DNA from: Thuidium tamariscinum
Taxonomy: Eukaryota; Streptophyta; Bryopsida; Hypnales; Thuidiaceae
Assembly: GCA_947034885.2 (NCBI GenBank)
Contig: OX344755.2
Location: 25,613,052 to 25,677,051 of the forward strand
Reading direction: 5' to 3'
Length of the DNA stretch: 64,000 nucleotides
Shown: positions 17,676 through 64,000 of the stretch, piece by piece
Layout: each line of letters opens with the position of its first letter
Position numbering within the stretch: position 1 is the stretch's first letter
Position numbers and translations under genes: made by a program
The notes under the pieces: generated by a model
What the model was told of the DNA's origin: nothing
What the model saw: the letters and a program-made list of their open reading frames with translations, nothing else
Database searches by the model: none

Positions 17676-17794
17676 CCCTCGCCACTCTCTTCGCATTGCA
17701 CCATATCTCAGAAAATACAACAGTTTTGTCAGACTATAATATGAAAAAAAACAAAGTTTTGGCAATAGTACATTTACCACACAACTGCGCTAAT

Positions 17795-18528
17795 TGGTGA
17801 ATGCAAGAAACACTTGTACTATTTGTTGCGTTTTACTACAGTACTCATGACTTTTTCTGGAGTACTTTAAAATTAAAAAATTAATTTGAAAAAAATTTGA
17901 AAAATATGAACAATGTATAGACCTCTAAGATAAAGGTTTTCACCGAAGGAAATTGATAGAAAATTTCTCTAAGTAGGAGAATTTAAAAAGCTCCAAACCT
18001 CAAGAAAATACATACCTTCATGTTTTAATTCGGGAAAAATAGTAAAAATAAGTAAATACAAAAAAATAAAAAGTGGCCATTTGCAACAATTCTATGGAGA
18101 TGGTCATTCACCAAAAAAAACACCAAAATAATATTATATATGTTTCAAAATTCAAGCAGAAAGAAGCTCACTTTGTAGACTTCCACACCACATAAAAATA
18201 ACTTTTTTCAAAATCCCTCACGTGGAGAGATGTAAATCTATTAGAAGACCATCTCATCCAAATTTCATCTCAAAATCATTAAAAAAAAGGTACTCCTTAG
18301 TACTAAAAACCTCCAAATTCTCATTTGTGACATTTAATCACTAGTACTATTTTAGTATCAAAATATTTTTGAAAATTATGAAAAAATTATGTAAGGTGTA
18401 TGATAGTCATGAGTACCTTCTCTAGAAATCTTGAGTCATTTCGAGCAAAAATGCAAAAGTTATGGCGAAAAAACAGATAAGCACTTAGCTTGTGACGGAA
18501 AATAGTACAAGTGTTTCTTGCATTCACC
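17795..18528. mobile_element. MITE, GGTGAATGCAAG family, copy 2
   Basis: The inverted ends share 29 bases, beginning GGTGAATGCAAGAAACACTT. The apparent target duplication is CTAAT (17790-17794 and 18529-18533), with one unpaired base at the left border. The copy is about 734 bp and non-coding. It lies just downstream of the GAPN pseudogene. It is the best preserved of four related copies in the window. Confidence 0.85.
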
Positions 18529-42583: not shown

Positions 42584-45500
42584 CTCCCACTTTGAGAGTG
42601 GTCAAAAGTGCGAAGGTCCATCTTCTTGATCAAGTTTTGGTGTTGTGGCTTCCCAAAAGCCTTGGTCAGCACATCAGCACCTATAGTTCGTGTGGACTCA
42701 CAACACTCACAAAAAATGCCTAATTAGCCCTTGTGGCTACCATGGCATACATCAAACAACCCACCGTTGCCTTGTAAGGCACACCTTGCTTTTCAGCTCT
42801 CACCTCTTCAAATTCTTCATTGCTAAGCTAAGGCAACCTCCCATGAGTCTCAACTTCCCATGAGGGCCTTGTACTCCTCTTGCATGGCCAACTCCCACTT
42901 GCTTGAATCTCCACAAAGCAACACCTCTCCAAGTGTGGATGGATCTCCAAGGAAAGCCACATTGGCATAATCTTCATGTTGTGGGGGAAGAATGTAATTC
43001 AACCACCAATCTCCAAGGGGCTTGCGGGTCCTTGTTGGATAACGTGGCTCCTCCATGGTCTGATCTTGCTCTTCCAAGGGCTGATCTCCTTCTACCAAGG
43101 GCCGATCCTTCCCTTGCTCCCTTGGTGAAGTGCTTGAAGAAGGGGCTCATGATCTCTTCAATTAGGGTGTGGCCAACTTCTTCTTGGGCTCCAACAAGTC
43201 CTCATCTTCCCCTCCTTGCTCTTCATCTTCATCTCCATCATCTTCCATGTGCACTCTTGGAGTTGTGCCCACCACATGGGCTGGTCCTCCATTTCTCCCA
43301 CTTGGGCTCATCTCCAAGAGCTTGGGATCAGCACCTCCATCCTCCAAGAAGGTCACATCTCTACTCTTGATGATTTTCTTGCTCTCCACTCACATCAGCC
43401 CATAAGCCTTGGTTCCCTCACAATAACCAAGGAAAAGGCACTTGATGCCTTTGCCATCCAACTTGGTCCTCTTGGCACTTGGGACCAATGCATAGGCCAT
43501 GCACCCAAAAATCCGCATGTGAGACACATGGGGCCTAATCCCACTCCAAGCTTCTTGGGGTGTCATGCTTGTCAAGGCTTGGGTGGGGCACCGGTTCCTT
43601 GTATAAACCGCTGTAGATACCGCCTCCCCCCAAAGCTCATACTTCAGCCCTTGGCCATGAATCATAGACCTTGCCATCTCCACAATGGTGCGATTTGCAT
43701 GCTCCGCTACACCGTTTTGTTGAGGAGTGCAAGGTGCTGATGTGTGGTGCTCAATGCCATGGGCCTTCAAGTACCCCTCAAAGGCCTTGGACACATATTC
43801 CCCTCCATTATCCGACCGCAGCACCTTCACCTTGCACTCGGATTGGGCCTCCACAAGGGCCTTCCAAGTCTCAAAACGCCCAAACACCTCACTCTTGCAC
43901 TTTAGCATATACACCCACACCTTGCGAGAGAAATCATCAATGAAGGTCACAAAATACCTTGCTCCTCCTATGGTTGTGGTCTTCATCGGCCCACACACAT
44001 CTGAATGCACAAGCTCCAATGGCTTGGTGGCTCGGGTTACCCCATCCTTAGGGAAGGGATGCCTTGCTTGCTTGCCCTCAATGCACCCCTTGCACACCAT
44101 AGAACTCCAATGATGCTTGCAAGAAGAGAGGTTCAGCCCCTTCACAATGTGTTGGAGGCTCTTCATGCTCTTCACATTCAAGTGCCCAAGCCTCCTATGC
44201 CAAAGCTCCACAAGGTCTCCATGAGCTGATCCTTGGGCAACACAAGCCAAGGAAGTACCATTCACCTTGGTGAAGAGAAGGGGGTACAAGTGGCCCTCAC
44301 GAGGGGCTGATGCTATCAAAACTCCACTTGGTGCCCTCACAACGCACCCCACCTTGTTGAAATGAACCTTCAAACCTCCCAAAGACAATTGGCTCACCGA
44401 AAGCAAGTTGGCATGCAACTTGGGGATATGGAGGGCCTCTTGGATCTGGATCCTCTTGGTCAGCCCCTTCACTTGCACCTCCACAAGGATCTCCCCCTTG
44501 CCAAGGGCCTCCACCATGCCATTGTCTCCCAAATAAATCTTCTTCCCCGAAATGGGTTGATAGGTGTGGAAGGCATCCCGATGGCTGGTCATATGTTGGG
44601 TGGGCCCCTGAGTCCACAATCCAAGTAAACATGTTGGCCTTCTCCCCTCCTCCATCGGTGGCAAAGGCGATCTCCTCCTCCTCCTCCTCCTCCTCTTTGG
44701 AGGCTTGGTGTGCACTCTCCTTGTCTTTGGCTTGGCTGGCCTTGCAATCCGTAGCAATGTGGCCTGGTTTGCCACACTTGAAGCACGTCCTTGTCTCCTT
44801 GAATGCCTTGGTGTTGCCTCCTCTCCCACACTTGAAGCACGTCCTTGTCTTGAGAAAAGGGCTGATCCCTCCCCTTGGGACTCATTCTCTTTGCGCTTGG
44901 TCACCTCATGCATCAAGCGGGCCGTCACAAACTCCATGGTCAGATCCTTCATAGGCCTTGTCTCCAATGCGGTGATGAGGAACTCATAAGATGGTGGCAA
45001 GCTTGCCAACAAGGTCATCACCACATCTCCCTCCGTCATGGGCGCCTCCAAGCAAGCCAACTCATCCGCAAGAGCCTTGACCTTGTTGACATGATCCAAC
45101 AAGTCATCCTCCTCTTGCATCTTGCTAGTGAAGAACTTGCGTCGGAGAAAGAGGAGATTGGAGAGGCTCTTGGTCTCATGGATGTTGCAAAGGGTGGTCC
45201 ATGCTTGGGCTGGTCCCTTGCAATGGCGAATGTGTGCAATTTGCCGGTCCACAAGGTTGATGGCAATGAGAGCAAAGGCCTTCCTCTCCTTCCTTTCAAA
45301 TGCCTTCTTGGTCTTTGGATCATCATCTTCACTTGGAGGCTCCTCACTCCCATCCACCATGTCCCACAAGTCCTTTATTGAGATTACAATGATATGAATG
45401 GATGAAAGGCTTTACTTAGATGGTAGGAAGATACAAAGACCCATGAGTGGGCTGATCTTATGCTAGAAGCCTTTCCCTAGTTATCCACAAACCATGTGGG

Positions 45501-46010
45501 ATAACTACCTTTCATGGGCTGCCTTTGACTACGAGCAATACCCAATGGACTCTAAGACTAACATAGTGTCTAATGCTACACCTAGGGCTGAATGTACATG
45601 GGCTACACTAATATGTACATGTTAGTCAACATGCTCCTAGGGCTATATGTACATGGTCTACACTAATATGTACATCATCTTCAACATCCTTCTCCGCAAG
45701 GATCATCTCCATCTTGAACTTCCACATGCCAAAGTTCTCCCCATGAAACTTGTCAATGATGCGCACGCCTTCTCCTCCACTTGATGCCATGGTGAAGCAC
45801 CTCCCACTTGTTGGCAGCACCCAATGTGTCTCCAAGAGTTCACAAACTCAATTCAGCCTCCAAACACTCCCTTGGCAGCCAATGGGGCTGAAATAGCACA
45901 ATTCAGCCCTCACAAGGACCTCCCAAGATCCTCCGAGCTCCAAGAACGACCAAACATTCCCTTGGCAGCCAATAGGGCTGAAATTGTTGCCCAAGCTCAT
46001 AGGTGACGAA
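42584..46010 (-). mobile_element. Fossil Ty1/Copia retrotransposon, internal part, incomplete
   Basis: Parts recognised on the minus strand are the gag start (MASSGGEGVRIIDKFHGENF at 45790), a UBN2-type gag body and RNA-binding region, the gag-pre-integrase zinc-binding segment (LWHRRLGHLNVKSMKSL), the integrase core (HSDVCGPM, FIDDFSRKVWVY, RSDNGGEY) and the leading edge of the Copia reverse transcriptase. It is broken, with several breaks, and its own 5' LTR is not seen. A solo LTR of the same family sits in its gag region. LTR copies differ noticeably by eye, so it does not look recent. Confidence 0.88.
45376..45686 (-). mobile_element. Solo LTR of the same Copia family, inserted in the Copia gag
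   Basis: This 311-bp LTR is flanked by a perfect 5-bp duplication, TCCTT (45371-45375 and 45687-45691). Read on the minus strand it runs TGTTGAAGATG to CTCAATA. It is 56 bp longer than the LTR at 42329 because its first part is repeated in tandem (CATGTACATATTAGTGTAG occurs twice). The partial copy at 63915 shows the same duplication. Confidence 0.85.
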
Positions 46011-46528
46011 TTTGAGGAGGCGAGGGCTGAAATGCAAGGTGTGCCTTATAAGGCAGCGGTGAGTTGTTTGAAGCATGCCATGGAAGCCACAAGGGCTGAT
46101 TTGGCATTATCGGTGAGTGTTGTATGTGAATCCATGTCTAAGTATGGCCCAAAGTGTTGGGCAGCGGTCAAGAGAGTGTTGAGATAGTTTTATGGCGTAC
46201 TTGGTAAGCCACCAACCCAAACTTGATTGCAATGATAATTCATTGCACCTTTGACCACTCTCAAAGTGGGAGTGTTGAAGATCATGTACATATTAGTGTA
46301 GCCCATGTACATTCAGCCCTAGGTGTAGCATTAGACATTAGGTTAGTCTTAGAGTCCATTGGGTATTGCTCGTAGTCAAAGGCAGCCCATGAAAGGTAGT
46401 TATCCCACATAGTTTGTGGATAACTAGAGAAAGGCTTCTAGCTTAAGTTCAGCCCACTCATGTGGCTTGGTATCTTCCTACCATCTAAATAAAGCCTTTC
46501 ATCCATCAATACCTTGGTAATCTCAATA
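46011..46528 (+). mobile_element. Oppositely oriented Copia 3' fragment with LTR
   Basis: On the plus strand a short remnant of the Copia reverse transcriptase/RNase H side (QGVPYKAAVSCLKHAM) is followed by a polypurine-type tract (CTCAAAGTGGGAG) and a 256-bp LTR at 46273-46528 (TGTTGAAGATC to CTCAATA). It lies head to head with the minus-strand Copia fossil. It is a fossil fragment. Confidence 0.8.
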
Positions 46529-47593
46529 AATTCCACAAATTGATTTTCTAGAGTTTTGTATACCATTTTGATGAAGGAGTCAAAAGTTATGTGGATTTTG
46601 TGTTTTCGGGCAGTTTTGGATTTCCTACTCTAAAATAAACTTTGAAATCCTTTATCTTACCCAATTTCCAATATTTTTGGACAAAAATAAAAATTGTAGG
46701 ATGTAGATACATTATTACAACATTTCAAATTTTTGACCATTGGAAATTTGGGATTGAGAATTTTCAATTCCATATTTCAACTGTAAATAATTTAGTATGT
46801 TTTATCATTCTCTACTACTACGTACTTACTATTTTTTTCCTATATGTTGTATTATTCCAAATGATTTGAAATTTTTTAAGCATGTGCCCAATTTATCTAG
46901 GAAAACAAATCCAAAGAAGCACCACCATTTAGGACATTTTTTCATAGAAATGTGGGCTTGGGAAGTGCAGCTGCCTTGCTTTTCGTAGGGGCAAAAAAAT
47001 GATTTTAGTGAATTTGAATGCTTATATCTTGCAATCCACTTGGTGGAAATGTTTGAAATTTTTATCACATGCTTTTGATATTATATAATACAATATCCTA
47101 TGGTCAGATATGTCAAAAAAAGTTGTTTTCCGAAAATTTTGGTATTTGTACTAGAAATGACAGTTTTGTTTTTTTGGAGGCAATTGGAGCGCTTTTGGTG
47201 AAAGTATATTGACGGTCCTTTAAGGGTTAAAGCTTTAAATATGACTTCTGGAGAACCCAATGTTGAGTTTGGACTTGTGGAATCCAATGTCGAGTTTTCA
47301 CTTGTGGAATTCAATGTTGAGTTTGGACTTGAAATCTGAGCGGTCAACAGGGCGGACGCCTTTGTCAGACACCCACTCGGTCGTCAAGGTGGACGGGCAG
47401 GGCCGAAGGGCGGATGCTGGGCAATCGACAAGGCGGACAGCCATCGGAAGGGCGGATGGACGGCGGGGCCGTCGGACGGGCCTGTCGTCGGACGACCCAA
47501 GGCGGACGCCGGAGGTCCGGGCGGACTCCCCGTCTGGCGACGATCCGCACTAGCCATTTGCCAATCCGGTGCCGGACTTGTCTAGGTCTGGCG
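46529..47593. other. AT-rich spacer, then a GC-rich GGCGGAC-rich segment cut by the giant element
   Basis: From 46529 to about 47240 the DNA is AT-rich without a gene. At 47255-47335 a short phrase (TTGGACTTGTGGAATCCAATG-like) is repeated three times with small changes. From 47338 to 47593 the DNA is GC-rich with many GGCGGAC motifs. Its right edge is the 8-bp duplication GTCTGGCG (47586-47593), and its natural continuation lies at 58431 beyond the giant element. Confidence 0.6.
47586..47593. repeat. 8-bp target duplication, left (GTCTGGCG)
   Basis: It is identical to 58423-58430 and directly adjoins the CAGGG terminus of the giant element. Confidence 0.88.
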
Positions 47594-47868
47594 CAGGGTT
47601 GTTCTGTTAGACATATTTTTGGGTTTCGGCGTCGTGTACGACGTCCGATGTCGCGTGTCGTATAAGACAACCTGTCGCTACCCTGTCCCGTCCCGTCGCG
47701 CAAGGGTAAAATTTTTTACCGCGAAGTAAGAAGTTTTTGCCTACGTGGCAGGCTGTCCACGCTGACGTGGAAAGTGAGGCAAGGCGACTATGGGTGGGGC
47801 GACTACGCATCAAGATAGGGCGACCGCGTATGTAGTTTTGAGGGCGACCTCTTATCAAGGGGCAACCG

Positions 47869-48402
47869 CGGGTGGGCGACCTCTTTGTTGGAATTTTCAA
47901 AAAAACACTCAAAACTGCCATTTTTAGTGCAAAAAACAAAAAAAATTAGAAATGGTAATTTTTTGTGTATGTAATGGTAGGATCTTCTAACATTATAGTA
48001 TGAGAATATGTGAAAAAAATTTCAAAAATTTTCACCACATAAATTGCAAGATAATTGCATTCAAACTTCAAAGTAAAGAAATCATTTTTGGGGGGACTTT
48101 GGCAACCTCAAGTGGGCGACCTCTTTTCATGGGGCGACTGCGGGAGGGCGACCTCGGGTGTAGGGGCGACCGTGGGTGGGCGACCTCTTTGTTGGAATTT
48201 TCAAAAAAACACTCAAAACTGCCATTTTTAGTGCAAAAAACCAAAAAAATTAGAAATGGTAATTTTTTGCATATGTAATGGTAGGATCTTCTAACATTAT
48301 AGTATGAGAATATGTGAAAAAAATTTCAAAAATTTTCACCACATAAATTGCAAGATAATTGCATTCAAACTTCAAAGTAAAGAAATCATTTGGGAGGGGA
48401 CA
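47869..48402. repeat. Direct tandem duplication, ~230 bp, offset 304
   Basis: The block starting GGGTGGGCGACCTCTTTGTT at about 47870 recurs at about 48174 and runs almost unchanged through CAAAGTAAAGAAATCATTT to about 48400. Between and before the copies lie GGGCGACC-rich phrases like those in the array at 52.6 kb. The copies differ at only a few bases, so the duplication is fairly young. Confidence 0.85.
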
Positions 48403-49499
48403 ATGGCAAATTAAGGTAGACATGCCTATTTAAAATCTAGCTATATTGGAGCCAATTCTAAGAGGGGCACATATTTCTTTAAAGTGTGCACATGTTTTTT
48501 CAATCAAATCCAAATGGAATCATAATTTTTCAATCAAAACTGTAATTTCTGTAAATTTTTGAAGTGGACAATTTTAAATTACAAAACCACCTCTAGGCTA
48601 AGGTCATAAACAACTTATAAACATCCTATAACCACCTAATCAACAACTAGATGTTCTCTATTTAAATAGAAACACATTACTCCAATTTGTCATAAAATCC
48701 TTGATTTTGTCATAGAGTGAAGGGAATTGGGTTTTTTTTAGGTAGAAATGGGGCCAAAATTAGAGTGACAAAAACAAACTGGTCTACTTGGTAGAATGGA
48801 GTTTCAAATGAAAATAGACTAGTCTACTTTAGCTTAAGAGATTTGATTTCTTAACTTAAAAAAAAATTCACTTTAGATCTTGACTTTAAAAAAATTATTC
48901 TTCAAAACTAAATTGAAAATATAGGAAAAATAACTATAAAAAAATAATGTAAATTTCATTTTATTTTAAATTGTTAGTAGAAGGTACATCATAGAGGAAA
49001 AAATAAATCATGAATAGCTCTAAGGTGGAATTAGAAATACTAGTTCTAATAGTGAGATTGTTCTAATAATCAAAGTTAATACTACAAAACTATTTGTTTA
49101 AAAAAGAATTAAAATTGAAGTAAAAAATGAATCCTATGTCAAACAATTTCAAAATCTTTTAATTATTGACCGCAAAATAAAATGCTTCATAATCTTCACA
49201 TCATCAATCTAAATAAAATGAATCAAAGTTCTAAGTAGACAAAATTACAATCTATAAGAAAAAAACATTTTTAAACTTTTGTGAATTTGTTTTTACCTAC
49301 ATAATTTAGATCTAAACTTATTTTGATATGACTCTTGCCTTTAGGCACTAATTCAAATAAAACTACATTTCTAAAAAGCTAATAAGATTTTCTATCTTAT
49401 AAAAGTGTTTCAAAAAGTTCCATAAAAAATTGACCTTATAGGAACTTGTCCAAAATCCATTTTGACCCCTTGTAGAGACAATGAAACTTTAGGAGATTA
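48403..49499. other. AT-rich body of the giant element
   Basis: I see no coding frame, RNA gene or clear repeat in this stretch, only A- and T-rich sequence. Confidence 0.5.
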
Positions 49500-49734
49500 C
49501 AGTCTACTCATGTATTACTTATCAAGAAGATTTTGAAATATAAAATTATGGATTGTGATTTTTTTTAAAATCATCCCCATTTGATTTTTTCTAATCTTCA
49601 AGGATCATCATATTCTTATATTTCTTAGCAAGTTAGCATCTTCACCTAAAATTTAAAAATTAGAAGAAATAGATTTGAATTAAAACTTCGCTTTGTGAGT
49701 TACGTAAAAGTCAAAGAATCATCCTAATGTTGTA

Positions 49735-50485
49735 CTGAAGGGGTGCACTATGTAATATGTTAGGACATCATGTGCATTCAAGCCCCTAAAAGATGAGGGC
49801 TATGTAGGTACATTTGATGAATTAAAATAGGGACATCTTTACGTAAATTTCTAAAGTCAAGTCATTTCAATCACCCTATTTTTATTTTGGAATTTTTTGG
49901 GGTGCTAATTAATTATACCCTATCACCCTATGTTCATTATACATAGAAAAGAATTCCATTTTTCTTGCAAACACAAAGAGAAGAGGATTATTTTCTTATT
50001 AAAACTTTGACTAAACATGTGATACATTTAAAAAAGACTAGATAAGCAATACTTCCATTCAACAATTGCATTCAAACACATTCAAAGTGTGAATACTTAT
50101 AAGAGCACAACCATTAGTTGTCACCATTAGTTGTCATGCATTAGTTGTCACCATTAGTTGTCACCCATTAGTTGTCACTCTCATTTATATGTAGAGCTCA
50201 TGCTCTCATAAAATTTAATTCATAGGATTCTTAATTTCAAACTTTGTTTACTACATAATAGTTTAGATTTTTGGAGATTCTTTTTGGCAACCCAACTTTA
50301 GAAAAAGAAGAAGAAGGTAAAGTTGTGTATTATTTCCTATCCTTCATTATTTATAATGAGTAATATCCCATTTTAGTAATGCTAGTTTACATCTAAAAAT
50401 TGTCTAAAATTTAGGCCAAGAGAATTAAAACCACACTTCATTTGATTGCACATTATAAGTTAAAGAATTGGGAGTGCCCTTCAAG
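49735..50485. mobile_element. hAT-like MITE nested in the satellite
   Basis: This 751-bp non-coding element has inverted ends CTGAAGGGGTGCACT and, from the right, CTTGAAGGGCACTCCC. It is flanked by a perfect 8-bp duplication, ATGTTGTA (49727-49734 and 50486-50493). Removing it restores the ~217-bp periodicity of the surrounding satellite. Confidence 0.85.
50108..50178. repeat. Short tandem repeat (ATTAGTTGTCACC)n
   Basis: The phrase CATTAGTTGTCA is repeated five times with spacings of about 13-18 bases. It lies inside the 751-bp MITE. Confidence 0.85.
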
Positions 50486-52559
50486 ATGTTGTATTATTGA
50501 ATAATTAGATTTCAATATACAAAAAAATGAATGGATATTTGTGTAAGAACTTCATCATTTTAATTTCTCTATTTTTCAAGCATCATTATATTCATGTATT
50601 ATTTACCACCTTCACCAAAAATTTTAAGACTAGAGGGAAGAGATTATTTTAACTTAGAACTTCTCTTCTGATTTTATATAAATTTCATAGTCATTTTAAT
50701 GGTGTAACATTTATAAAGTGGATTTTAGGATACAAAATAATGATTTGAATTTTGTATAATTAAGAATTTCTTTGTTTGAATTTTTTAATTTTCCAAGTAT
50801 CAACATATTCATGTATTCTTCATTACCTTTACCAAAAATTTAAAAACTAAAGGGAAGAGATTTAAATGAAAATTTCCCCTTTTGATCGAATCAAATCTTA
50901 AAGCCATCATTATGGTGTAATATTCATTAAGTGAATTTTAGAATAAAAAATAATGCATGGATATTTGTGAACGATCTTCTCCATTTGAAATTCTCTATTT
51001 TCCAAGCATCATTATATTTATGTACTATTTATCAATTTTCACCTTCAACAATAAAGAAAAAAGAAAAAAAGAAGAGGTTTAAATAAAAACTTCTTCTTTT
51101 GATTTATACAAATGTTATTTGAAGGCTCATCCTAATGGCAAATTATTTATCAAGCAAATTTTAGAATTCAAAATAGTGGATGGAGACTTTAATAACAATT
51201 TGCCTATTTCAATTTTTCCTATTTTTGAACCATCATCATAGTCATGTCTTATTTAGGCACCACTTTGATTTCATCTTAAAAATTAGAAGGAAGAGGTATA
51301 AGTGAAATAAGTTTTCTTTTTGATATACAACTTTATTTTGAAGGTTCATCCTCATGGTGAATTATTTTATCAAATAGATTTTAAAACTCAAAATAGTGAA
51401 TGGAGACTTTATTAACAATTTGCCTATTCAACTTTTTTCAATTTTCAAGCATCATAATACCTATGTCTTATTTAAATACAACCTTACTCTCATCTTTAAA
51501 ATTAGAAGGAACAAATTAAAAAATGAAACTTCTCTTTTAGATTTATGCAACTTTTATTTGAAGGCTCATATTTTTGGTAAATTATTTATCAAGCAAACTT
51601 TAGAACTCAAAATAGTGGATAGAGATTTCAATAACAACTTGCCCATTTGAGTTTTTCTATTTCCAAAGTATCACCGTACTCATATTTTATTAGGTCACCA
51701 CCTTCATGTCAATTCTAAAAATTAGTGGAAAGATATTTAAATGAAAACATTTTCTTTTTGATTTACAAAAATGTCAAAGAATTATCCTACCAAAAAAAAA
51801 TATCAAATAAATTCTAGTATACAATATAATAGATGGAGACTCAAGTATATAAGAATATATCCATTAGAATTCTCCATTCTTTAAGCATCATTCTACTCAA
51901 GTATTTTTTATTACCTCAATCTACAATTTTAGAATTAGAAGGATGAAATTTAAATGATAACTTCTCCTTTTAATTTATGTAAATGTCAATGAGTCATTTT
52001 AATAATGACTTATTTATGAATTGAACTTCAAAATACAAAATAATAAATAAAGATCTATGTAAAATTGTAAATTGTTCCCCATTTAATAAATCAATATACA
52101 AAAAATTACAATTCCATTTACAAAAACATCCATACAATAATAAATTCCCCTCTATACAAAAGTTGAATGCTCATTGAAATTTTTGACCTTATCACTTCAA
52201 TTATAAAGTAGAAAAAATTCATAGATTAAAATAGACATACAAAAATTAAAGCTTTACTATAGATAATTCAAGATAAACAAATTTTGAGAAGAGCTTTAAT
52301 ATTTAGCAAATGATATAAGACATCTATCCATTGAAGTCTAATCTCAAACATAAACATTGTCTTAGCTCACCAAATATAAAATGTACATTAATATGTTCAA
52401 AAATTGATGCAAGTGTAACTCATCATAATCAACTTTACTACTCTTCCCTCCAATTTAAAAAAAATGCCATACTCTATGTCTCATAGACAATTACTTCTCT
52501 ACAACCTCTTATAGAAGAATACTGGTTTAGAGTCACCGCATAGGGAAGATAGAGCTGTT

Positions 52560-54560
52560 GTCCCCAAATTTTCAATTTTTTGCAATTTTTTGGGTATTTT
52601 GGGTCTTGGGGACCTCTTTAAAGGAGAATGCGGATCTAGGGCGACCTCTTGTAGGAGAACGCGGGTGTAGGGCGACCTCTTAAGGAGGTGGGAGTTGTTT
52701 GCCCCCAAAATTTCAATTTTTTGCAATTTTGGGGCCATTTTGGGTCTTGGGGACTTCTTTGAAGGAGAATGCAGGTCTAGGGCTACCTCGTGTGGGGCTA
52801 CTTCGGGTCTCAGGGCGACCTCTTGTGGGCGACCGCGGGTGTGGGGCGACCGAAGGTAGGAGAACACGGGTCTAGGACGACCGCAGGTGGAGGTGAGAGC
52901 CATTCCCTTGTCCAAGTTCAAAAAAAGCCATTTTTGGGCCATTTTTGGCCATTTTGGGGTGACTTCGGGTCTTGGGGCGACCTCTTGTGGGCGACCGCGG
53001 GTGTGGGGCGACCGAAGGTAGGAGAACGCGGGTGTAAGGCGACCGCGGGTGGAGGTGGGAGCCATTCCCTTGTCCAGGTCCAAAAAAAGCCATTTTGGGG
53101 CCATTTTGGGGCGACTTCGGGTCTTGGGGCGACTTCGGGTCTTGGGGCGACCTCTTGTGGGTGACCGCGGGTGTGGGGCGACCGAAGGTAGGAGAACGCG
53201 GGTGTAGGGCGACCGCGGGTGGAGGTGGGAGCCATTCCCTTGTCCAAGTTCAAAAAAAGCCATTTTGGGGCCATTTTGGGCCATTTTGGGGCGACTTCGG
53301 GTCTTGGGGCGACCTCTTGTGGGCGACCGCGGGTGGAGGTGGGAGCCATTCCCTTGTCCAAGTTCAAAAAAAGTCATTTTTGGGCCATTTTGGGGTGACT
53401 TCGGGTCTTGGGGCGACCTCTTGTGGGCGACCGCGGGTGTGGGGCGACCGAAGGTAGGAGAACGCGGGTGTAAGGCGACCGCGGGTGGAGGTGGGAGCCA
53501 TTCCCTTGTCCAGGTCCAAAAAAAGCCATTTTGGGGCCATTTTGGGGCGACTTCGGGTCTTGGGGCGACCTCTTGTGGGTGACCGCGGGTGTGGGGCGAC
53601 CGAAGGTAGGAGAACGCGGGTGTAGGGCGACCGCGGGTGGAGGTGGGAGCCATTCCCTTGTCCAAGTTCAAAAAAAGCCATTTTTGGGCCATTTTGGGCC
53701 ATTTTGGGGCGACTTCGGGTCTTGGGGCGACCTCTTGTGGGCGACCGCGGGTGGAGGTGGGAGCCATTCCCTTGTCCAAGTTCAAAAAAAGCCATTTTTG
53801 GGCCATTTTGGGGCGACTTCGGGTCTTGGGGCGACCTCTTGTGGGCGACCGCGGGTGTGGGGCGACCGAAGGTAGGAGAACGTGGGTGTAGGGCGACCGT
53901 GGGTGGAGGTGGGAGCCATTCCCTTGTCCAAGTTCAAAAAAAGCCATTTTTGGGCCATTTTGGGCCATTTTGGGGCGACTTCGGGTCTTGGGGCGACCTC
54001 TTGTGGGCGACCGCGGGTGTGGGGCGACCGAAGGTAGGAGAACGCGGGTGTAGGGCGACCGCGGGTGGAGGTGGGAGCCATTCCCTTGTCCAAGTTCAAA
54101 AAAAGCCATTTTGGGGCCATTTTGGGTCATTTTGGGGCGACTTCGGGTCTTGGGGCGACTTCTTTTAGGGGGTCTAGGGCGACCTCGTGTAGGAGAACGC
54201 GGGTGTAGGGTGACCTCTTAAGGAGGTGGGAGTTGTTTGCCCCCAAAATTTCAATTTTTTGCAATTTTGGGGCCATTTTGGGTCTTGGGGACCTCTTTGA
54301 AGGAGAATGCAGGTCTAGGGCGACCTCATGTAGGAGAACGCGGGTGTTGGGCGACCTCTTAAGGAGAACGCGCTGTTAGGGCGACCTCTTAAGGAGGTGG
54401 GAGTTGTTTGCCCCCAAAATTTCAATTTTTTGCAATTTGGGGGCCATTTTGGGTCTTAGAGACCTCTTTGAAGGAGAATGCGGGTCTAAGGCGATCACTT
54501 GTATGGGAACGCGGGTTTAAAACATAATTTTATAGGAGAATGCTTGTCTAAGGCGATTGT
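52560..54560. repeat. GC-rich GGGCGACC minisatellite with higher-order structure
   Basis: The phrase GCCATTCCCTTGTCC recurs at 52899, 53061, 53231, 53344, 53497, 53649, 53763, 53915 and 54077. Spacings alternate between long (152-170) and short (113-114) units; the short form lacks the segment with GGGGCGACCGAAGGTAGGAG. The order long, short, long occurs twice (53061-53497 and 53497-53915), and some variants (CCAGGTCC, GGGTGACCGCGGG) mark the same position in both, which indicates a three-unit higher-order repeat. A second unit type, with GTTTGCCCCCAAAATTTCAA, flanks the array on both sides (52560-52800 and 54170-54500). Long frames across it on either strand, up to 543 codons, are products of the repetition. 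Confidence 0.9.
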
Positions 54561-57293
54561 AATTGGTGTGTGAGCTATTACCTTGCTTTTGGATGAGTTT
54601 CTTTTATTTCGAAATCTTTTGGCCATTAAAACGAGGTTTTGAATTTTTTAACTTTTTTTCAATTCTACTTGAAGAATTATTTATTATTATTTTTTGTCCG
54701 AGGGTTCTCATATCATCACAGACTCTAGAGACCCTAGAAATAGTTATTTTCTAAGTTATTGAAAAATATTTATTGCTTACCTCCACTTTGTTTCTTCGAT
54801 TGAGTTTGGAGAGCTTAATGCCTTGATATTTTTCTCTAGGAATGTATTTTAGGAGTTCTTGATTTCTAGGGTTTGTAACGCTTGAAGAACCATTGTACCT
54901 TTAGGGAATTAGGGAACAAATGAGATTTTATATAGGTACCTATTGTCTTAATTTTGTCTTGATTATTGGATTTTTTTTTTAAGATAGAAAAATTGATTAG
55001 CTTCAATGAATTTATATTTTTTCAATTAGTATCCAAGATAAAAAGTTATGCCTAAATAAACTCAAAACAATAGAGAGGAGTAGCCCACAACAATTTTTAA
55101 AATCAAAGTTTTATTTTTTATTTTTTTCTCATATATTATATTTTTGCCTACATGAAAAGTTTTGATACATTTGGATTTATTTTGAGAAAGTTATGAACAA
55201 TCTTGTTTCTTGGACAATTGAATCATTGTCTTGAAAAATAATTTATTGAATTCATATCTAAATGCAATATTTACAATTCTTCTAAAGGATATCCACGAAT
55301 TTTTGTACTAGTTAGGTATAAGAATCTAAGGTTAGATGCCGAAAAAAGCAATTTTCAAATTTTTCTTCTCTTTGCTATAAAAATGAGAGTTTAAGTATTT
55401 TTTTTTGTAGAAAAATGGCCTTGGTCCTTTAGGGATTAAGAACTCAAGTGTTCTAAAATTGCCCTTGTTCTTCAAATTGTCCCTCTATATAGTGCTAAAA
55501 TCTTTATTATGGTTTGCAAGCTCTTTCTTGTAATTATGCATTAAAAATAAACAATTTGGTTGTCTAGTTAAAACTTTTAATGTCATTTAAGAATGACTAA
55601 AAGAAGCCCTAAAAAAAAGATGCATTAGGGAACTATGTGGGTTGACTTTATGTACCTTGATATTATTTTTTTATCTCCCAAGATTCATTCCAAATATCTT
55701 ATTATGGAAAGAAAGTTGAAGAACTATTGGTAGATGACTCTAGAATTATTCTCTGTGAATAGGTGACAACATTTAAAGAAGAGTATAGTAAGAATGCAAG
55801 AAAAGTATAAATACACAATAGAATCTATTTTGTATTTTATTAGAAAATTTGCCGAATTAATGAAAATGAATTAATAATATGGAAAAAATACAATAGTGAA
55901 GTTTCTGAAAATGCATCAATTAATGAAGAAGTTGAGTGTATTGATCTAAAGAAGCAATTGGCAAGTAGATAGTTGGTGAACTTGGTTATGGATAAACCAT
56001 GGTTGATGAAGCCCTTGAAAGTAGTTTCCTCCATCCATTGTTTTGTAATAAGACATGATATTATTATACTAGCATAAATTCTTAAGCCACATTGCATGCC
56101 TCTAAATTTCAAAAAGTAATGTAAATAAATTAACTTGTTCTTTTATGATGTGCCATTTAAAAAAGAATATTGAATATCCTATATGCAAGGTGATAAGGTG
56201 TTGAGGTCTATGTATAGAATCTCAAATTTGAATTTTCTTGTGCAAATTTTTGTAATTTTTGTCATAAAATTTAATCTCATTTGTTCATTTCTAAATTATT
56301 ATGTGAAAAAATTTGCAAAAATGAAATTAAAATATAACTTGTAAGGGATCAAAAATCCACTTGTCTAAAGCTATGATTCATTGTATTTGGACTAAACATA
56401 AAAAATTATAGACAATCTTGTTTATTGAGCAATTATAGAAACTTCTTGAAAAAATAACATATTAGATTTCATTTTGAATGCAATTTTCACAAATTTTCTA
56501 AAAAATTGTTTGTCAAGGTTAAATTTTCTTCCTAGAAGAATCACACAATTAGAATTTACATGTTTTAATTACATCTTAGAACTATTAATAATTTATTTTC
56601 TTGTTCAACCTATTTCTACCTAACAATTTGTTAACCCCTAAGTACTCAAGCAACCATTTTTGGTTGTTGCCTTACTTTGGGTATAATTTTTGGGCATAAT
56701 TTCTTTTTGCTTCACTTTAAAAAAAATAGATTGTCTTTCAACATTTACATTCAAAACTAATTAAGATCAATATGGCCAAAAAGAAATTATTAGAAAAATA
56801 TCATGAAGTGTTTATAATTGCATAGTGTTGAAAAACTTAATATTTGGAAAAAGTGTTGATGCTCTCATTACTAGATCTTTTTCATTTTTTCACAAATCAA
56901 TAGAAATCATAGTTTTGACTAATTCAAATAAAACTTCAAGTGCTATTTAAGATGAAAATTGTATTTTTGGTGATTTTTTTGAAGTTATATCTTCAAAATT
57001 CATTTGAAGATAATCTAAAAACAACTTTATAACTGTACCTATATAGATACTTTCTATTTTTTGTGCTTCATATAATCTTCTTTGATGCTAACTTCAAAAA
57101 AATTATAGAAATTGTATTTTATCACATTTGTATTTTGTCCTAACCCCTTGGGCTCTTAGGAGTAATTCAACATAAAAAACAAAGTCTATAGTGTATAAAT
57201 TTTCCACAAATAGTGGTCAAAGTCATTGAAATTGTAGGCCAACATTCAAAATTTTATTTTTCCAATTTTGAATGCAAATATCTTCTAATTTGT
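54561..57293. other. AT-rich body of the giant element
   Basis: This is AT-rich DNA without a gene I can support. TTGGTCCTTTAGGGATTAAG at about 55412-55431 resembles the ends of the TTAACCC-type MITE at 32422 and may be a remnant. The frame at 55840-56112 is isolated and unrecognised. Confidence 0.45.
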
Positions 57294-58008
57294 GGGTGAT
57301 TGCATGAAAGACTTGTACTATTTGTTGCATTTTGCAATAGTACTTCTGACTTTTTTTGGAGTACTATTTAATTAGAAAAATAAATTTTAAATTAAAAAAA
57401 TATACCTTTAAGACAAAGGTACCTACAAAAGGAATTGTATAGGAAAATTTTCTAAGTAGGAGAACTGGAAAAGTGCCAAACCTTAAGAAAATACATACCT
57501 TCATGTTTTAATTAGGGAAAAATAGTAAGAATAAGTAAATACAAAAAATAAAAAGTGGCCATTTGCAACAATTTTATGGAGATGGTCATTCAGTTAAAAA
57601 TCTGCCAAAATAATATTTTATATGTTTCAAAATACAAGCAAAATGAAGCTCTCTTTATAGACCTCCACATGACATAAAATTAACTATTTTTAAAAATCCT
57701 TGTGTGTAAAACTAGAAGTCTATTAGAAGACCATCTCATCCAAATTTCATCTCAAAATCATTAAAAAAAGGTATTCCATAGTACTAAGAACTTCCAAATT
57801 GTCATATGTGACATTCAATCACTAGTATTATTTTTATATTAAATATTTTTGAAAATTATCAAAAATTCATGTAAGCTATATGATAGTTATGAGTACCTTT
57901 TCTAGAAATCTTGAGTCATTTGGAGCAAAAATACAAAAGTTATGGTCAAAAAATAGATCAACATGAGACATGTGATGAAAAATAGTACAAGTCTTTCATG
58001 CAATTGCC
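57294..58008. mobile_element. MITE, GGTGAATGCAAG family, copy 4
   Basis: The left end GGGTGATTGCATGAAAGACT is roughly the inverse of the right end AGTCTTTCATGCAATTGCC. The body aligns over its length with the copy at 17795-18528 in the same orientation, for example AAGAAAATACATACCTTCAT. I could not define a target duplication. It is nested near the right end of the giant element. Confidence 0.75.
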
Positions 58009-58195
58009 TTTATATGGTCATACCTCATGAAAATTTTACCACATGATTTTAGACAAGTGAAGTAGAAGATTTTATTGTTACATCCACTTTTTTGTATTTT
58101 TAGAGAAGTGTAACAAATGTAATTTGCAATAGAAGAGGTTTCCCCCTTTTTTTGCAATGGAATTTTTCCATATGTTAACCAAAAAAAAAAAAAAG

Positions 58196-58257
58196 AGGTC
58201 GCCCTTACCCGAGGTCGCCCCACCTGAGGTCGCCCCTACCCGAGGTCGCCCTAAAAT
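58196..58257. repeat. Inverted GGTCGCCC cluster near the right end of the giant element
   Basis: Four GGTCGCCC motifs are spaced 13-20 bases apart. They are the reverse complement of the GGGCGACC motifs found in the left subterminal region (47788-48185) and in the central minisatellite. The inverted placement suggests subterminal repeats of the element. Confidence 0.75.
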
Positions 58258-58422
58258 GTAACACGTGCATGTCACATGGCATCCAGGTGGCATTATTTTC
58301 CACGTGGTAATTTAAAAAAAGTCAAAGGTAAATTTGACTTTTATGGACGTCGCGGAGGGCCTACTGGACGTTTAGTGACGTCGCAATGTCGCGATGTCGC
58401 AATGTCCGGCAGAACAACCCTG

Positions 58423-58430
58423 GTCTGGCG
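58423..58430. repeat. 8-bp target duplication, right (GTCTGGCG)
   Basis: It is identical to 47586-47593 and directly adjoins the inverted CAGGG terminus of the giant element. Confidence 0.88.
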
Positions 58431-58685
58431 GCGAACGGGTATATGGTCGGACAGCCCCTTCATTTTCTCTCACTTCTTCTTTCCTCACGAAGTGCCTCAA
58501 GTTGGATGTGCTGTCTATTGCCACGTGTCAGTGCGTGGTGCTAGTTGCTCCGACTTGGCGGAGAGAAGGGGTCCATTACTTTTTCACGCCGAAGCTTTGA
58601 CCAATTATATTACGAAGACATGTTTCATAACTTCCGGTTTATAAAATCTTGATTTGCAAGGGCTTGCAAATTTGGATTCTCTATC

Positions 58686-59279
58686 ATGGCTACTGATAGC
58701 GGTGCAGGTACTGATGGGATGAATTCAGGATGTGACCATAAAAAGCGAATTAAAGTGAAGGGGACTACACATGGACTACACTATGAAATTTTGGATGATC
58801 CAAACATCATAGCGGAGAGCGGTTGGGAAAATGAAGCCGCAGATTATTGGACCTCCAAACTATGTAAGCAATAAGTTAAAATGTACCACATCAACAAGTT
58901 GTGGCCTCGAGATGCACACGCACGCCAGACTGCGGATTTCAACTATAAACCATACAGTTGCATTGATAAGCACTTTGTCCATCGAGCGGCAAAGGTGTGG
59001 AGGGCCATGATTGGCCCTAAACCAATGTCTAAAGGGTACATCAACTACAGCTTGGTGGCCATGGTGTATGCAGAACTCAGATTGAAACACAAGGTGGATT
59101 GGAGCACGTTCCAAACAACAAAGAAGAATCCACTATTGCTGCAGCAAAATCAAAAGGATAATCCCGATTCTTGGACACAGACGACGCAGAGGGTACAACC
59201 AATCTTACAAAATCCAGCAACGCCTACAACGATGGCCTCAGCAAGCGCATGTGCGAAACTGCAGTTGGATTCGAGGTAA
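58686..59279 (+). pseudogene. Unrecognised reading frame, one internal stop
   Basis: An ATG at 58686 opens a frame of 62 codons (MATDSGAGTDGMNSGCDHKK) ended by TAA at 58872-58874. The same frame then continues for about 130 codons to 59279, including HFVHRAAKVWRAMIGPKPMS and YINYSLVAMVYAELRLKHKV. The composition is protein-like: charged, with tryptophan and cysteine and codon usage unlike the AT-rich spacers. The last codons run into an LTR fragment at 59277. I do not recognise the family. It could be an accessory protein of a transposon or a host gene relic. The GC-rich DNA on the other side of the giant element (47338-47593) would lie upstream of it at the empty site. Confidence 0.5.
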
Positions 59280-59388
59280 CTAGAGAAAGGCTTCTAGCTT
59301 AAGTTCAGCCCACTCATGTGGCTTGGTATCTTCCTACCATCTAAGTAAAGCCTTTCATCCATCAATACCTTTGCAATCTCAATACACT
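59277..59388 (+). repeat. Copia LTR fragment
   Basis: It matches the last ~112 bases of the LTR at 46273-46528, from TAACTAGAGAAAGGCTTCTA to CTCAATA. The first part of the LTR is missing at its left border, which abuts the unrecognised frame. It is a fossil piece. Confidence 0.8.
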
Positions 59389-60772
59389 AAAGATGAATCG
59401 TCTCGTGGTTTGGGAGAGGGTAGTAGTAGTAAAACAAAGTAGACATGGACCTATACGTCTTATATGAGTTTTTGATTGAACCATCGTATTGTATAGACTA
59501 TGGATGGTTAGATGGTGATGTGGATTTTAGAAGGATAGAGCAATACTAAGTAAACGTACCCAGAATATGCTTTGACTTATTATCAGTTTTTAATATAAAC
59601 ATATATATGGAATTATTTATCTATCTATTCATTTATCTATCTATTTATATATGTATCAATTAGTCAATGTATGTATTCACTATATACAATACTTTTTTAT
59701 GTGGAATGTATGCTATTAGAGGCATGGTATTGAATGTAAGAAATTATGATTGAATATTATAATATTTGAATTTTTAATTGATTTTGATTTGTTTTGTTTT
59801 TGTATATGATCTCTAATATGCCTAGTTTCAATTTGCACGGTTACAATGCAGAAAAAGAAATATACAACTTATAAAAATGTTTGTTTTTTGTTCAATTTGA
59901 ACAAATTTGTCGAAGCTCAAAATAGGCCTTGGACATTTATGGGTAAACACTAGAGGTGTTTTCAATAAAATATTATTTTCAGTAAACATGTATAGTTGTG
60001 AAATAATTTCTAAGAACTACTTTCATTGGTAGATTTGAAGTTGCTTTCTATGAGCAAATCCTTAGAACTTGAAATTTGACATACATATTATCAATATAGA
60101 GATGATCTCATGCCAAGAATTTCATGGCCACATTTTAATTTCTCAATCTTTGCCTCTTTGGGAGGGTGTCAAAGTTGGTAGCATTGAAATTTTTCTCACA
60201 ACCACACATGTATGTAGATTTCAAATATATTTTTCTAGGCAAATCTTTTGGCCTTGAAATTTGACACATGTGTTATTAACATAGAGACGATCTTGTGCAG
60301 AAAATTAAATGTAAAAATAACAATTTTTGAACCCCAGGGAGGGCGTCGAAGATGGCAGCAGCAGGGGATTTTTTTTTCCATGTGAAAGTAAGAATTCGTA
60401 AATGAAATAGACCTTACTGTATATGTTTTATCTATTTAAATACACGGTCAATTCGCCCCGACCAAATTGGGCATCCGCTTCGATTCGGCGACTGTTGCAA
60501 CGAATATTTGTCCCCAACGGTCAGCTGCACTAAGTTTACTATAAGTAGACTGAGAGAAGTCATTTGTAAGCACTCCTGATGAACTGAACACTAAGATTTC
60601 CAAGGGCTAGGCACTGCAAATTTATTTGTGTCCCTTGCTTGGTAATGCATAATTTGGTGGAAGGGGGGGCTTTTATTTTGAAGGTTTTTTGCACTCAGTG
60701 CTTATTTGATTGTGGACTTTTACAACACAGTGCAAACGTTATCAATTACAATTGAAGGGAAAAAAATTCAAT
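59389..60772. other. Spacer with simple repeat, short duplication and leader of the next gene
   Basis: A TATC-rich simple repeat lies at about 59615-59660. The stretch 59815-59950 is related to the right half of the TTAACCC-type element at 24.5-24.73 kb. Two diverged copies of a ~185-bp phrase (CTTGAAATTTGACA to GGGAGGGTGTCAAAG) lie at about 60056-60185 and 60240-60362. A TATA-like TACTATAAGTAG at 60538-60549 sits about 220 bases before the hAT transposase start and could be its old promoter. Confidence 0.5.
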
Positions 60773-63700
60773 ATGAGCAAGGATTTCACCACTTGGTACA
60801 CGATCCCGGAAACAAACAAAATACAATGCAAGGCTTGCAAGTGTGTGTTCACCCGAAAAACTAGCCGTATATTGAGCCACTTGGGATACGAAGGCCCTAC
60901 GGGACATCGTGATAGGGGAATCGGCTTGTGCTCGCAGTTGACATCTAGAACAAAATCCTTATTTGTTAATTGCAAAGGGTTGTTTCCAAAAAGACCTATT
61001 GCAGACGGAACGGATGGCAACAACATGCCAATGTCCACAAGCAATCTTTTAAATGATAGGGGCACACCGTGTTCTACACAAGAAGATTCATGCACCGCAC
61101 CGGAAGAAGTGGTCGCTGTGGGTTCGCAAATAACTTCAAATATGGAATCAGCTGGTGATTGGCATACTTCGAGGGCATCAAGTAGTAGGCCTGCAACGCA
61201 GAGTAGGCTAGTGGATGGCTTTGATGAAGCCAACAGACGCAAATTACATGCAGCATGGGCCCATTTTTTTTATTCGGCAAATATACCATTTTTAGTAGCT
61301 CGAAATCCAGCCTTTAGGGAAGCAGTGAAGTTGACGACTGAGTTTAAAAAGTCCTACACTCCTCCATCGTACAATGATCTATGACATAAATTGCTTTAGT
61401 AAGCGAAGTTAGATATTCAAACGAAGTTGCTTCAGAGGACTGAAGATAGTGTGAGGAAGTTCGGAGCAACAATGTCCTTTGATGGATGGAGCTCGGTGAC
61501 GAACCGTCCATTAATAAATGCAATGCTCATATCTTCAGCAGGTGAACAATTCCTTGGATCGGTGGATACGAGTGGACAGAAGAAGTCAGCACCGTATGTG
61601 GCTTCTATCTTGGAAGAATTCATAGAGCAAGTGGGCTCCAAGAATGTAGTGCAAGTGACCGCGGATAATACCAATACAAACCCCGCAGCATGGAATTTGG
61701 TGTCCCATAAATATCCACACATATATTTTCAAGGATATGTGGTGCATGCCTTGAGCTTGTTGCTTAAGGATTGGGCAAAGCAGCCATGGATCAAAGATTA
61801 CGTGAAGGCTGTCGAGGTCATTGTCAAATTCTTCAAGAAAAGGCATATGCCACTTGCCATATTTCGGAAGTACGAGACAAGATTCAGTTTGTTGAAGCTG
61901 TTGGAAACAAGGTTTGCTTCTTATTTCATTATGATTGACCGCTTGTTGGAAGTGAAGGATGCGTTGAAGCAGAGTGTGGTGGATCCACAATGGGTGGTGT
62001 ACGTGAATACCTTGGATGATAGAGAAAAAGGCAAATCACGATCGCAGTCAAGGAATGTGTACAATATAGTTTTGGATGAGCATTTCTGGGACCAGTTGAC
62101 CAATGTGCGAGAAGTGACTGCCCCAGTTGTATTCGGTCTACGTGATTTGGATGCAAAGACACCGTGCATGGGGAAGGTATTGCATATTATGTAGAATCTA
62201 GAAAAACATGTGTTTGGTCTACAAAGAGTGCCTTTTTGTTTGGACCTTGACCGGACAATACCACTGGAGGAGTCCTTTGTAAAACAACGAGAGATGGGGG
62301 AGACAGACCTCCATTATGCAGGCGCTCTTTTGAACCCGTATCTTCTCCACGACAAAGGACTAGCCAACGATCAAAATGCAACAGAGCGATGCAAGAAGGT
62401 TATAATGAAGATATGTGACCGCGAAGGTGGTGAAGGAATTTGTAGCCTTCCGCCATTGGTAACCTCCATTCGACAACATGTTGGAGCTACAGGAACAAAT
62501 GTTGTTGGCCCATGCTTGGTGGGATTTTGAAGGTGCATGTGGGAAGCTAATTTCTCCCATTGCCAAGAGGATTTTGGCCCAACTAGTGTCATCATTTACT
62601 GCGAACAAAATTGGAGTAGCTACTCTTATGTTCACAACAAATCTCGGAACAAATTGGCAACAACCCGGGCAGCGGACTTGGTGTATGTGTACACCAATTC
62701 AAAAGTTGTGGGCGCATCGAAGAACAAGGATGAGAAGAAATGGTACAGAGACAATGTGGACTACGAGTCCTCCGATGCGGGAAGCGATGCGGAAGACATT
62801 GATGATGGACCTCATCCACTTGACCAACTAGATGGAGATGACGAGGACAACGACATGGACAATTTGCATGACGAAACGTACCGTAGTCCTAATCAAACAA
62901 ATGGTGGGTGGAGAGGCAATAATACAAACATCTATGACTTTCACTCCGATGAGGAGAATGATGGGTACGGTGAAGATGAACCTCATATAGCAAGATTCGT
63001 AGATGAATCTGGGTTTTTGAATAGCGAATATATTTTATCATAGAAGGAGGACGCTTTTGTAAAGATAGCAGAGGCGGATGGGATAACACTTCCCGATAGT
63101 GGGGATGGTGGCACGGATGAAGTCATTCGTATTTGTCAATCTCCATCCACAGGAGGGGTTTAAGAAAAGGATAATGATGAAGAAAATGATGGAGGAAGGT
63201 GTTGTACGGACAATGAAGAGGTCCCGATCAATACAAATGTGCATTCCAAGAAGGCGCTCGGAAGCAAGAACAATGGTGAATCCATTACGGGTACCGACAA
63301 TCCAATTGCAGTAAAGGAAAATGGTACTGAACGTGTAGAAGAGGCCGAGAATCCAAGCTTTGGCAATACACTCAAACGTAGAAAAGAGCTCATGCAAGAT
63401 TCCCCTAAACCACCTCGGAGCGGTGCACCGTGTGCCATATTTGGAACTAGTAGCCAAATTCCGGACGGTTCAAAGAGCTTAGGGCTTGGACATCGGCTTA
63501 TTAATGTTGGCAAGGCAAAGCAGCCTTGCATCGAATTTACTGCCACTGTATTATCATCCATCGATGATGATGGAGATGTGACATTGGTACAGATGAAACA
63601 TAAACTAGCTTTGCACACCGCACTGCCACGATGCAATATGAAATCAGCAGCCTCTCCACCGCAATCATCGAGGGCTACAAACATAATCATTCATGGAGGT

Positions 63701-63914
63701 CCCCAAGCAGTGCAATTAGAGGTCAAAGTAGGCAATGAAGGTAATAAAAAAAGACCTATGCAGCCTTTCGCGGTTTCACCAGTGAAGAAATTGAATGCAG
63801 GTAGAACCTCCCTTCATGCATGCCTACCTGTTGCGAAGAGGAAAATGAAACTTGTCGCGTGTCTAAGTTCTAGGGACTACCAAAGCCATATTGACAGTAA
63901 AAGAGTAATACAAG
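60773..63914 (+). pseudogene. hAT transposase gene (BED finger, DUF659-like core), broken
   Basis: Starting at the ATG at 60773 (MSKDFTTWYTIPETNKIQCK), one frame carries a BED-type zinc finger (CKACKC...HLGYEGPTGH). It then carries a DUF659-like core (MSFDGWSSVTNRPLINAMLI, FLGSVDTSGQKKSAPYVASI, VVQVTADNTNTNPAAWNLVS) and LHYAGALLNPYLL. The hAT dimerisation region follows (WWDFEGACGKLISPIAKRIL in the next frame, then CEQNWSSYSYVHNKSRNKLA at 62600 back in the first). Stops occur at 61382, near 61397 (two), at 62192, 62528, 63041 and about 63161, and a pair of compensating shifts lies between about 62450 and 62600. A long charged C-terminal extension reaches the LTR at 63915. hAT transposases cut and paste DNA in the nucleus; this copy could not. 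Confidence 0.88.
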
Positions 63915-64000
63915 TGTTGAAGATCATGTACATATTAGTGTAGACCATGTACATACAGCCCTAGGAGTATGTTGAAGAATATGTACATATTAGTGTAGCC
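63915..64000 (+). repeat. Copia LTR, start only (cut by the window end)
   Basis: It begins TGTTGAAGATCATGTACATA and shows the same internal tandem duplication (second TGTTGAAGAATATGTACATA at 63957) as the 311-bp solo LTR at 45376-45686. It interrupts the end of the hAT frame. Confidence 0.8.

Follow-up and report, generated by a model that had tools for sequence, protein, structure and literature searches.

Gene-less 10-kb hAT elements and same-tipped 29-kb kinase-bearing elements in Thuidium tamariscinum

How a transposon-like unit of 10.8 kb that encodes no intact protein has kept exact ends around long tandem arrays is the question raised by positions 47594 to 58422 of the 64,000-nucleotide stretch of Thuidium tamariscinum DNA analyzed here (the window; G000:C7:25613052-25677051, in a genome of 363 Mb and 19 contigs). 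A preliminary description had taken this segment for a nonautonomous hAT-like element that was inserted once, was unusually large, contained no protein gene, and had absorbed or grown satellite DNA. The best explanation of the whole, which we consider quite probable, combines insertion as one unit, a transposase provided by a 29-kb partner, descent from a giant element, and a regulator that binds the motif repeated in the arrays.

Ends, empty sites, and size classes

Perfect 13-bp inverted tips, CAGGGTTGTTCTG, and a perfect 8-bp target site duplication (TSD), GTCTGGCG, bound the segment exactly where the preliminary description had placed them (Table 1), and the window contains no further exact match to CAGGGTTGTTCTG. 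A 300-base empty-site probe joining 47593 to 58431 matched 40 scored places (out of 133 candidates), all of them across the join, at 82 to 90% identity. The 12 paralogous empty sites that were fetched each contained one GTCTGGCG-like site, in some cases with 1 or 2 bases different, and zero extra bases; this is the single target site that had been proposed as a mark of one insertion. Together with the TSD, the CAGGG start of the tips, and the hAT transposase of the 29-kb partner, these empty sites bear out the assignment: positions 47594 to 58422 are one copy of a nonautonomous hAT family of about 10 kb, inserted as a single unit into another element, F3. The insertion point lies just upstream of an F3 gene encoding a WCHI-type protein (described below), between that gene and a cluster of F3 motifs. 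The F3 region that contains the insertion site is present in at least 40 copies in the genome (the 40 scored of the same 133 candidates).

Other copies of the tips, which the preliminary description had suggested looking for, number 270 genome-wide (142 forward and 128 reverse) versus 26 for a reversed control pattern. All 270 exact tips were collected with their 8-bp flanks, elements with changed tips being left uncounted. Among 75 adjacent convergent pairs less than 80 kb apart, the flanks were identical in 60, including the window pair, and differed at one position in 5, at two in 2, and at four or more in 8; the background for identical flanks was 1 in 16,353 combinations of tips on different contigs. 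Defining a TSD-matched element as a convergent pair of less than 110 kb with at most two flank mismatches gave 70 elements, 63 of them with zero mismatches; two further flank-matched combinations of more than 260 kb were excluded. The 70 elements fall into size classes of 9.3 to 14.4 kb (23 elements), 26.6 to 31.0 kb (30 elements), and 32.1 to 107.8 kb (17 elements), and some in the largest class are nested, such as C7:2886984-2922427 inside C7:2858869-2922614. The smallest elements measure 9,347 bp (one mismatch) and 9,538 bp (zero mismatches). No convergent pairs shorter than 9.3 kb were found among the 270 exact tips, a set that elements with diverged tips would escape, and the same tips yielded no TSD-matched pairs of 14.4 to 26.6 kb; neither miniature inverted-repeat transposable elements (MITEs) nor graded deletion forms appear in this exact-tip census.

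The 63 distinct TSDs favor T at position 2 (51%) and A at position 7 (49%), with both present in 17 and at least one in 46. At G000:C6:25.09-25.79 Mb, several tips share identical flanks (CTTTGAAT and ACGAAGGC), probably as a result of segment duplication after insertion.

The 29-kb family and the 10-kb family

The partner family, F1, consists of elements of about 29.4 kb with the same 13-bp tips as the window element. Its full gene inventory was drawn from two copies, A29 and B29, which are 98.3 to 98.6% identical over two main matching blocks, and from one nested copy. A29 and B29 carry genes for a hAT transposase, a protein kinase, and three paralogous proteins with a WCHI domain, one of them RING-like. 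A transposase gene flanked by these tips, which had been named as something to search for, is thus present; its product matches DUF659 (E = 7.2e-32) and Dimer_Tnp_hAT (E = 1.9e-7) in Pfam. The kinase matches Pkinase (E = 1e-12), and the RING match in one WCHI protein is below the Pfam cutoff. Likely positions of the catalytic D, D, and E residues of the transposase were picked out by eye only. The WCHI domain, named after its motif, spans about 110 to 140 residues and is present in the 29-kb family, in F3, and in a third family, F2. It gave no Pfam or PHROG match, and no PDB match either as a single sequence or as a profile. NCBIfam provided no explaining match, with two coiled-coil-type matches near an E value of 0.06 for one protein, and the 57 pattern matches in viral contigs included no relatives.

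The genes follow the size classes. All 30 elements of 26.6 to 31.0 kb contain one kinase gene each, as do 14 of the 17 larger elements and none of the 23 elements of 9.3 to 14.4 kb. Similarly, the 41 transposase copies that were scored (out of 869 candidates) were found in 23 of the 30 midsize, 7 of the 17 large, and none of the 23 short elements. The kinase gene is free of stops in 34 of 66 full-length copies that are at least 90% identical, and the transposase gene in 19 of the 41 scored copies. Measured against a more diverged copy in C51, an element of 51.6 kb, the kinase has a ratio of nonsynonymous to synonymous substitution rates (dN/dS) of 0.23 to 0.34. Because the tips are identical, the ends similar, and kinase and transposase co-occur by size class, the 29-kb family is assigned as the partner of the 10-kb family. 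The co-occurrence is an observation, and the 29-kb transposase is most likely the source for mobilization of the short elements.

The 10-kb family was read in five copies, including the window copy (W10), which are about 90 to 98% identical to one another over most of their length and share a common layout with common arrays. With the 29-kb element they have about 200 to 280 bp in common at the left end and 215 to 250 bp at the right, in addition to scattered weak matches to that element and to F2. That no protein gene is present holds for intact genes; it does not hold for a stop-ridden kinase relic found in all five copies, which matches kinase residues 400 to 521 at the protein level (E = 6e-7 to 6e-5). 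A DNA-profile search confined to two elements gave a match to A29 at 17561-17910 (E = 9.5e-10), and 99 reversed or shuffled control proteins gave 0 matches. No element genes besides the kinase were detected in the family by tblastn at an E value of 0.5. Long open frames in the 10-kb copies were rejected as genes, being read-through of the arrays with lengths that differ between the two copies compared.

By its content, the family is nonautonomous and of the Ds type, sharing the ends of the 29-kb family without its transposase. Because the parts in common are the ends, weak scattered matches, and a degenerate kinase relic, an older giant kinase-bearing element is its most likely ancestor, rather than the present 29-kb form after some recent loss of DNA. 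Its size, which had been thought unusual, does exceed that of a MITE; it is less odd for an element whose same-tip partner reaches about 29.4 kb, beside which 10.8 kb is the short form.

Table 1. Features of the 10.8-kb element and of the F3 element around it (window coordinates)
Feature	Positions	Strand	Basis or remark
Left 8-bp TSD, GTCTGGCG	47586..47593	+	exact match to right copy
Left 13-bp terminal inverted repeat, CAGGGTTGTTCTG	47594..47606	+	exact
Left terminal region in common with 29-kb element	47594..47873	+	about 88-91% over 255-281 bp (A29, B29 versus W10)
Left GGCGACC array, 7 motifs in one orientation	47819..48185	+	overlaps a duplicated unit of about 304 bp
Tandem unit of about 219 bp, 2.6 copies	51087..51647	+	repeat matches in same region of other ~10-kb copies
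Central GGCGACC array, 35 motifs in one orientation	52640..54386	+	the "satellite/minisatellite" of the preliminary description
Kinase relic (C-terminal portion), broken by stops and a frame change	55728..56026	+	protein and DNA-profile matches
Segment about 72% identical to 29-kb sequence just downstream of kinase gene	57485..58004	-	resembles one arm of A29 inverted repeat
Right GGTCGCC array, 4 motifs	58197..58250	-	
Right terminal region in common with 29-kb element	58198..58422	+	about 86% over 226 bp
Right 13-bp terminal inverted repeat, CAGGGTTGTTCTG	58410..58422	-	exact
Right 8-bp TSD, GTCTGGCG	58423..58430	+	exact match to left copy
F3: CGGACGG-type motifs upstream of WCHI-type gene, separated from it by the insertion	47353..47525	+	
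F3: WCHI-domain gene with in-frame stop	58653..59279	+	
F3: broken hAT transposase gene	60710..63943	+	44% identical to F2 transposase; zf-BED E = 0.006, below cutoff

The inverted repeat named in Table 1 is about 0.8 kb long and lies downstream of the A29 kinase gene, at about 18.5 to 19.3 kb (L010).

Motif arrays and competing explanations

The window element contains 46 copies of GGCGACC; the other 53 kb of the window contains 0, and none was found in 21 kb of six light-harvesting gene loci. The genome gave 49 light-harvesting protein matches in all, as suits a photosynthetic organism, and for one of these genes the best single-domain PDB matches are 8htu and 7xqp, both moss photosystem entries, which tentatively points to a moss-like plant. 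All five 10-kb copies have arrays at both ends and in the middle, with 12 to 35 motifs in the central array. This array starts 5.0 to 5.8 kb from the left end; in A29, an array ahead of the transposase gene stands at 5.95 kb. The arrays of A29 follow its genes: 51 of its 54 GGCGACC motifs are in an array zone defined as -800 to +100 bp around each gene start plus the 500 bp next to each tip, gene starts being open-frame starts and not mapped transcripts, and each of the five genes has 3 to 15 motifs.

The same layout with a different motif is present in F2, an element of 22,518 bp read in one copy, which is whole and nested in C51 (L015-L017, G000:C2, a 51.6-kb pair) with GTGGACCT as its TSD at both sides. 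Its tips start with CAGGG, and it encodes a transposase (37% identical to that of the 29-kb family), a kinase-like protein (27% identical to the 29-kb kinase, with a Pfam score below the cutoff), and two WCHI proteins, one of which has a RING match that passes the cutoff. The zone contains 61 of its 63 CGGACGG motifs, with 7 to 23 at each of its four genes. When gene starts were placed at random, a layout with at least 3 motifs in the zone of every gene was reached in 1 of 20,000 trials for A29 and 16 of 20,000 for F2. A further family of kinase genes, 71 to 72% identical to the 29-kb kinase, was found at L065, L066, and eight other places, 8 of the 10 without stops, and probably marks another giant element family. 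L065 and L066, which were read after the array layout had already been seen, both have five sense GGTCGCC motifs about 200 to 370 bp upstream of the open frame and no CGGACGG. The motif thus seems to go with the clade, the 29-kb and further kinase families having one motif and F2 and F3 the other, and what had been called satellite in the window element is, judging from the copies read, a family trait that matches the arrays ahead of each giant-element gene.

The nesting of F2 bears on a separate idea, that units of 51 kb move as composites, which was considered since three pairs near 51 kb resembled a size class. The three were shown to be independent: the first (C51) has F2 nested at A29 position ~2922, the second (L032) has no F2 there, and in the third, the first 4 kb read match A29 over their left 204 bp, with a second match in an internal piece of 4 kb.

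In the proposed mechanism, the 29-kb transposase would move both the 29-kb and the 10-kb families by cut and paste, and a giant kinase-bearing ancestor would have lost its genes to give the 10-kb family with its kinase relic and arrays. An element-encoded protein, with the WCHI proteins or the transposase as candidates, would bind the motif, and this binding would open, coactivate, or protect all of the element genes and ends in the manner of VANC, the regulator of the VANDAL transposons of Arabidopsis; the 10-kb family would retain and amplify the motif to share in the activation. That an element-encoded regulator would land on the arrays is less secure than cut and paste by the 29-kb transposase. 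In its most specific form, the proposal is that a private, clade-specific motif code at ends and genes, read by the WCHI set (with the kinase and a RING-like member), lifts host silencing from the whole 29-kb unit, with the 10-kb family as its parasite. This form is possible rather than probable, and we offer it tentatively.

Several observations weigh against this interpretation. As many as 130 of the 270 tips are outside any TSD-matched pair. In none of the three inventoried copies are all five genes open, WCHI_a being interrupted by a stop in A29 and the transposase gene of B29 having a broken frame. Selection on the 29-kb genes is weakly shown, since dN/dS is clearly below 1 just for the kinase against the diverged copy, with values of 0.29 to 1.25 for close kinase pairs and 0.22 to 1.10 for the other genes. 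The array of the RING-like gene in A29 is also the right-tip array, as is that of WCHI_d in F2; therefore, without double counting, separate arrays belong to four genes in A29 and to three in F2. Relative to their genes, the A29 arrays are uniformly oriented at three of the five genes and of mixed orientation at the other two, and uniformity is lacking in F2. In the window, F3 has CGGACGG ahead of its WCHI gene and none ahead of its decayed transposase gene. Finally, the motif could instead serve as a site for the transposase or belong to a promoter rich in GC.

The first of these two alternatives, somewhat unlikely in our view, holds that the arrays are subterminal-type sites for the transposase only, with the internal arrays titrating or recruiting it and without any antisilencing. 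hAT transposases such as Ac and Hermes do bind subterminal repeats, motifs lie within 500 bp of the tips in both F1 (19 of 54, in A29) and F2 (23 of 63), and all five 10-kb copies have motifs near both ends; however, the remaining motifs (35 of 54 in F1, 40 of 63 in F2) are hundreds to thousands of bases internal, nearly all of them ahead of genes. That position just upstream of genes, together with arrays that are partly open in translation, would suit a GC-rich promoter or 5' leader made repetitive by slippage with no dedicated binding protein. We think this unlikely, in that a single 7- to 8-mer is repeated at the genes and at the tips within an element, the clades have different ones, and GGCGACC is absent from the rest of the window and from the light-harvesting loci.

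The remaining alternatives concern origin and movement. Another hAT transposase in the genome could move the 10-kb family, given 869 first-look transposase candidates and the existence of F2 as another CAGGG-tipped family; this is improbable, as the 29-kb family is the one among the elements read with identical 13-bp tips and similar ends of 200 to 280 bp. The notion that the window copy alone absorbed or grew its arrays after insertion is very improbable and is refuted as an account of their origin by the five copies, which occupy different sites and have arrays in similar places and about 90 to 98% identity in the matching rest. The part of it concerning growth stands to the extent that the range in central motif number points to continuing slippage, and growth in single copies is possible. 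That the two ends came from separate small insertions or from chance, for which no supporting observation was found, can be set aside, refuted as it is by the single-target empty sites, the matched flanks of 60 of the 75 pairs, and the discrete size classes. Of the two outcomes that would have refuted the preliminary description, a genome lacking further tips and ends that arose by separate insertions, neither was observed. Named again, the preferred explanation is a unit insertion, most likely moved by the 29-kb transposase, with arrays that may attract an element-encoded regulator.

Known systems and surrounding DNA

By their enzyme these are hAT elements, and their novelty lies in their size, gene set, and array layout. 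hAT-type terminal inverted repeats start with CAGGG, and Ac-like elements prefer targets of the form nTnnnnAn; the elements here resemble them in the 8-bp TSD with T2 and A7 favored, the short CAGGG tips, and the DUF659/Dimer_Tnp_hAT protein of the 29-kb partner. Ds shares its ends with Ac as a nonautonomous derivative. hAT elements are textbook small transposons, typically of a few kilobases, and MITE-type nonautonomous forms are under a few kilobases, whereas here the partner has five genes, one of them for a kinase, in about 29.4 kb, and the nonautonomous form measures 9.3 to 14.4 kb, its smallest member being too large for the MITE type.

VANDAL elements are Mutator-like transposons with antisilencing VANC proteins, which bind the motif and remove methylation. 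In two papers on Arabidopsis, VANC21 is described as binding a nine-base motif that is dense in noncoding tandem repeats of VANDAL elements, the motifs of VANC6 differ from those of VANC21, and the repeats gain and lose units (PMC5735166, PMC10398659). The giant elements resemble VANDALs as multigene DNA transposons with family-specific motif arrays in noncoding regions, and they differ in having a hAT transposase with kinase and WCHI-type genes, motif binding and demethylation being putative in their case. In En/Spm, which has a CACTA transposase and a 3-bp TSD, TNPA binds motifs that are repeated close to the ends and in the promoter region; the short repeated motifs at ends and promoter are alike, and En/Spm is not a hAT element. 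Starships, Mavericks, and Terminons are giant eukaryotic transposons with other enzymes, Starships having a tyrosine recombinase and Mavericks an integrase with DNA polymerase B. They are similar in spanning tens of kilobases with extra genes; the elements described here differ in that the same kinase gene, and not varied cargo, is present in all 30 copies of the main class, and the nine F1 and F2 proteins scanned gave no Pfam match to Starship or Maverick enzymes. Neither hAT nor kinase is found as a whole word in the available text of a giant-transposon review (PMC6431247). Giant or kinase-bearing hAT elements were also absent from literature titles and abstract beginnings among the matches listed, which is weak evidence of absence.

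The family thus adds TSD-verified hAT units of 27 to 31 kb with a retained kinase and a new domain, as well as a nested 22.5-kb family with the same gene types, and suggests that hAT transposition is able to move some 30 kb. Giant partners would explain the persistence of a gene-less 10-kb element. Two clades with two motifs and one layout offer a comparative test of self-activation outside Mutator; if true, the regulatory code would amount to a counterpart of VANC that arose independently in a different superfamily of transposons.

In the window, pieces of F3 flank the element at 45370-47593 and 58431-64000. Next to the left piece, on the minus strand at 43390-45369, is a long open frame that by eye resembles a copia-type retrotransposon polyprotein.

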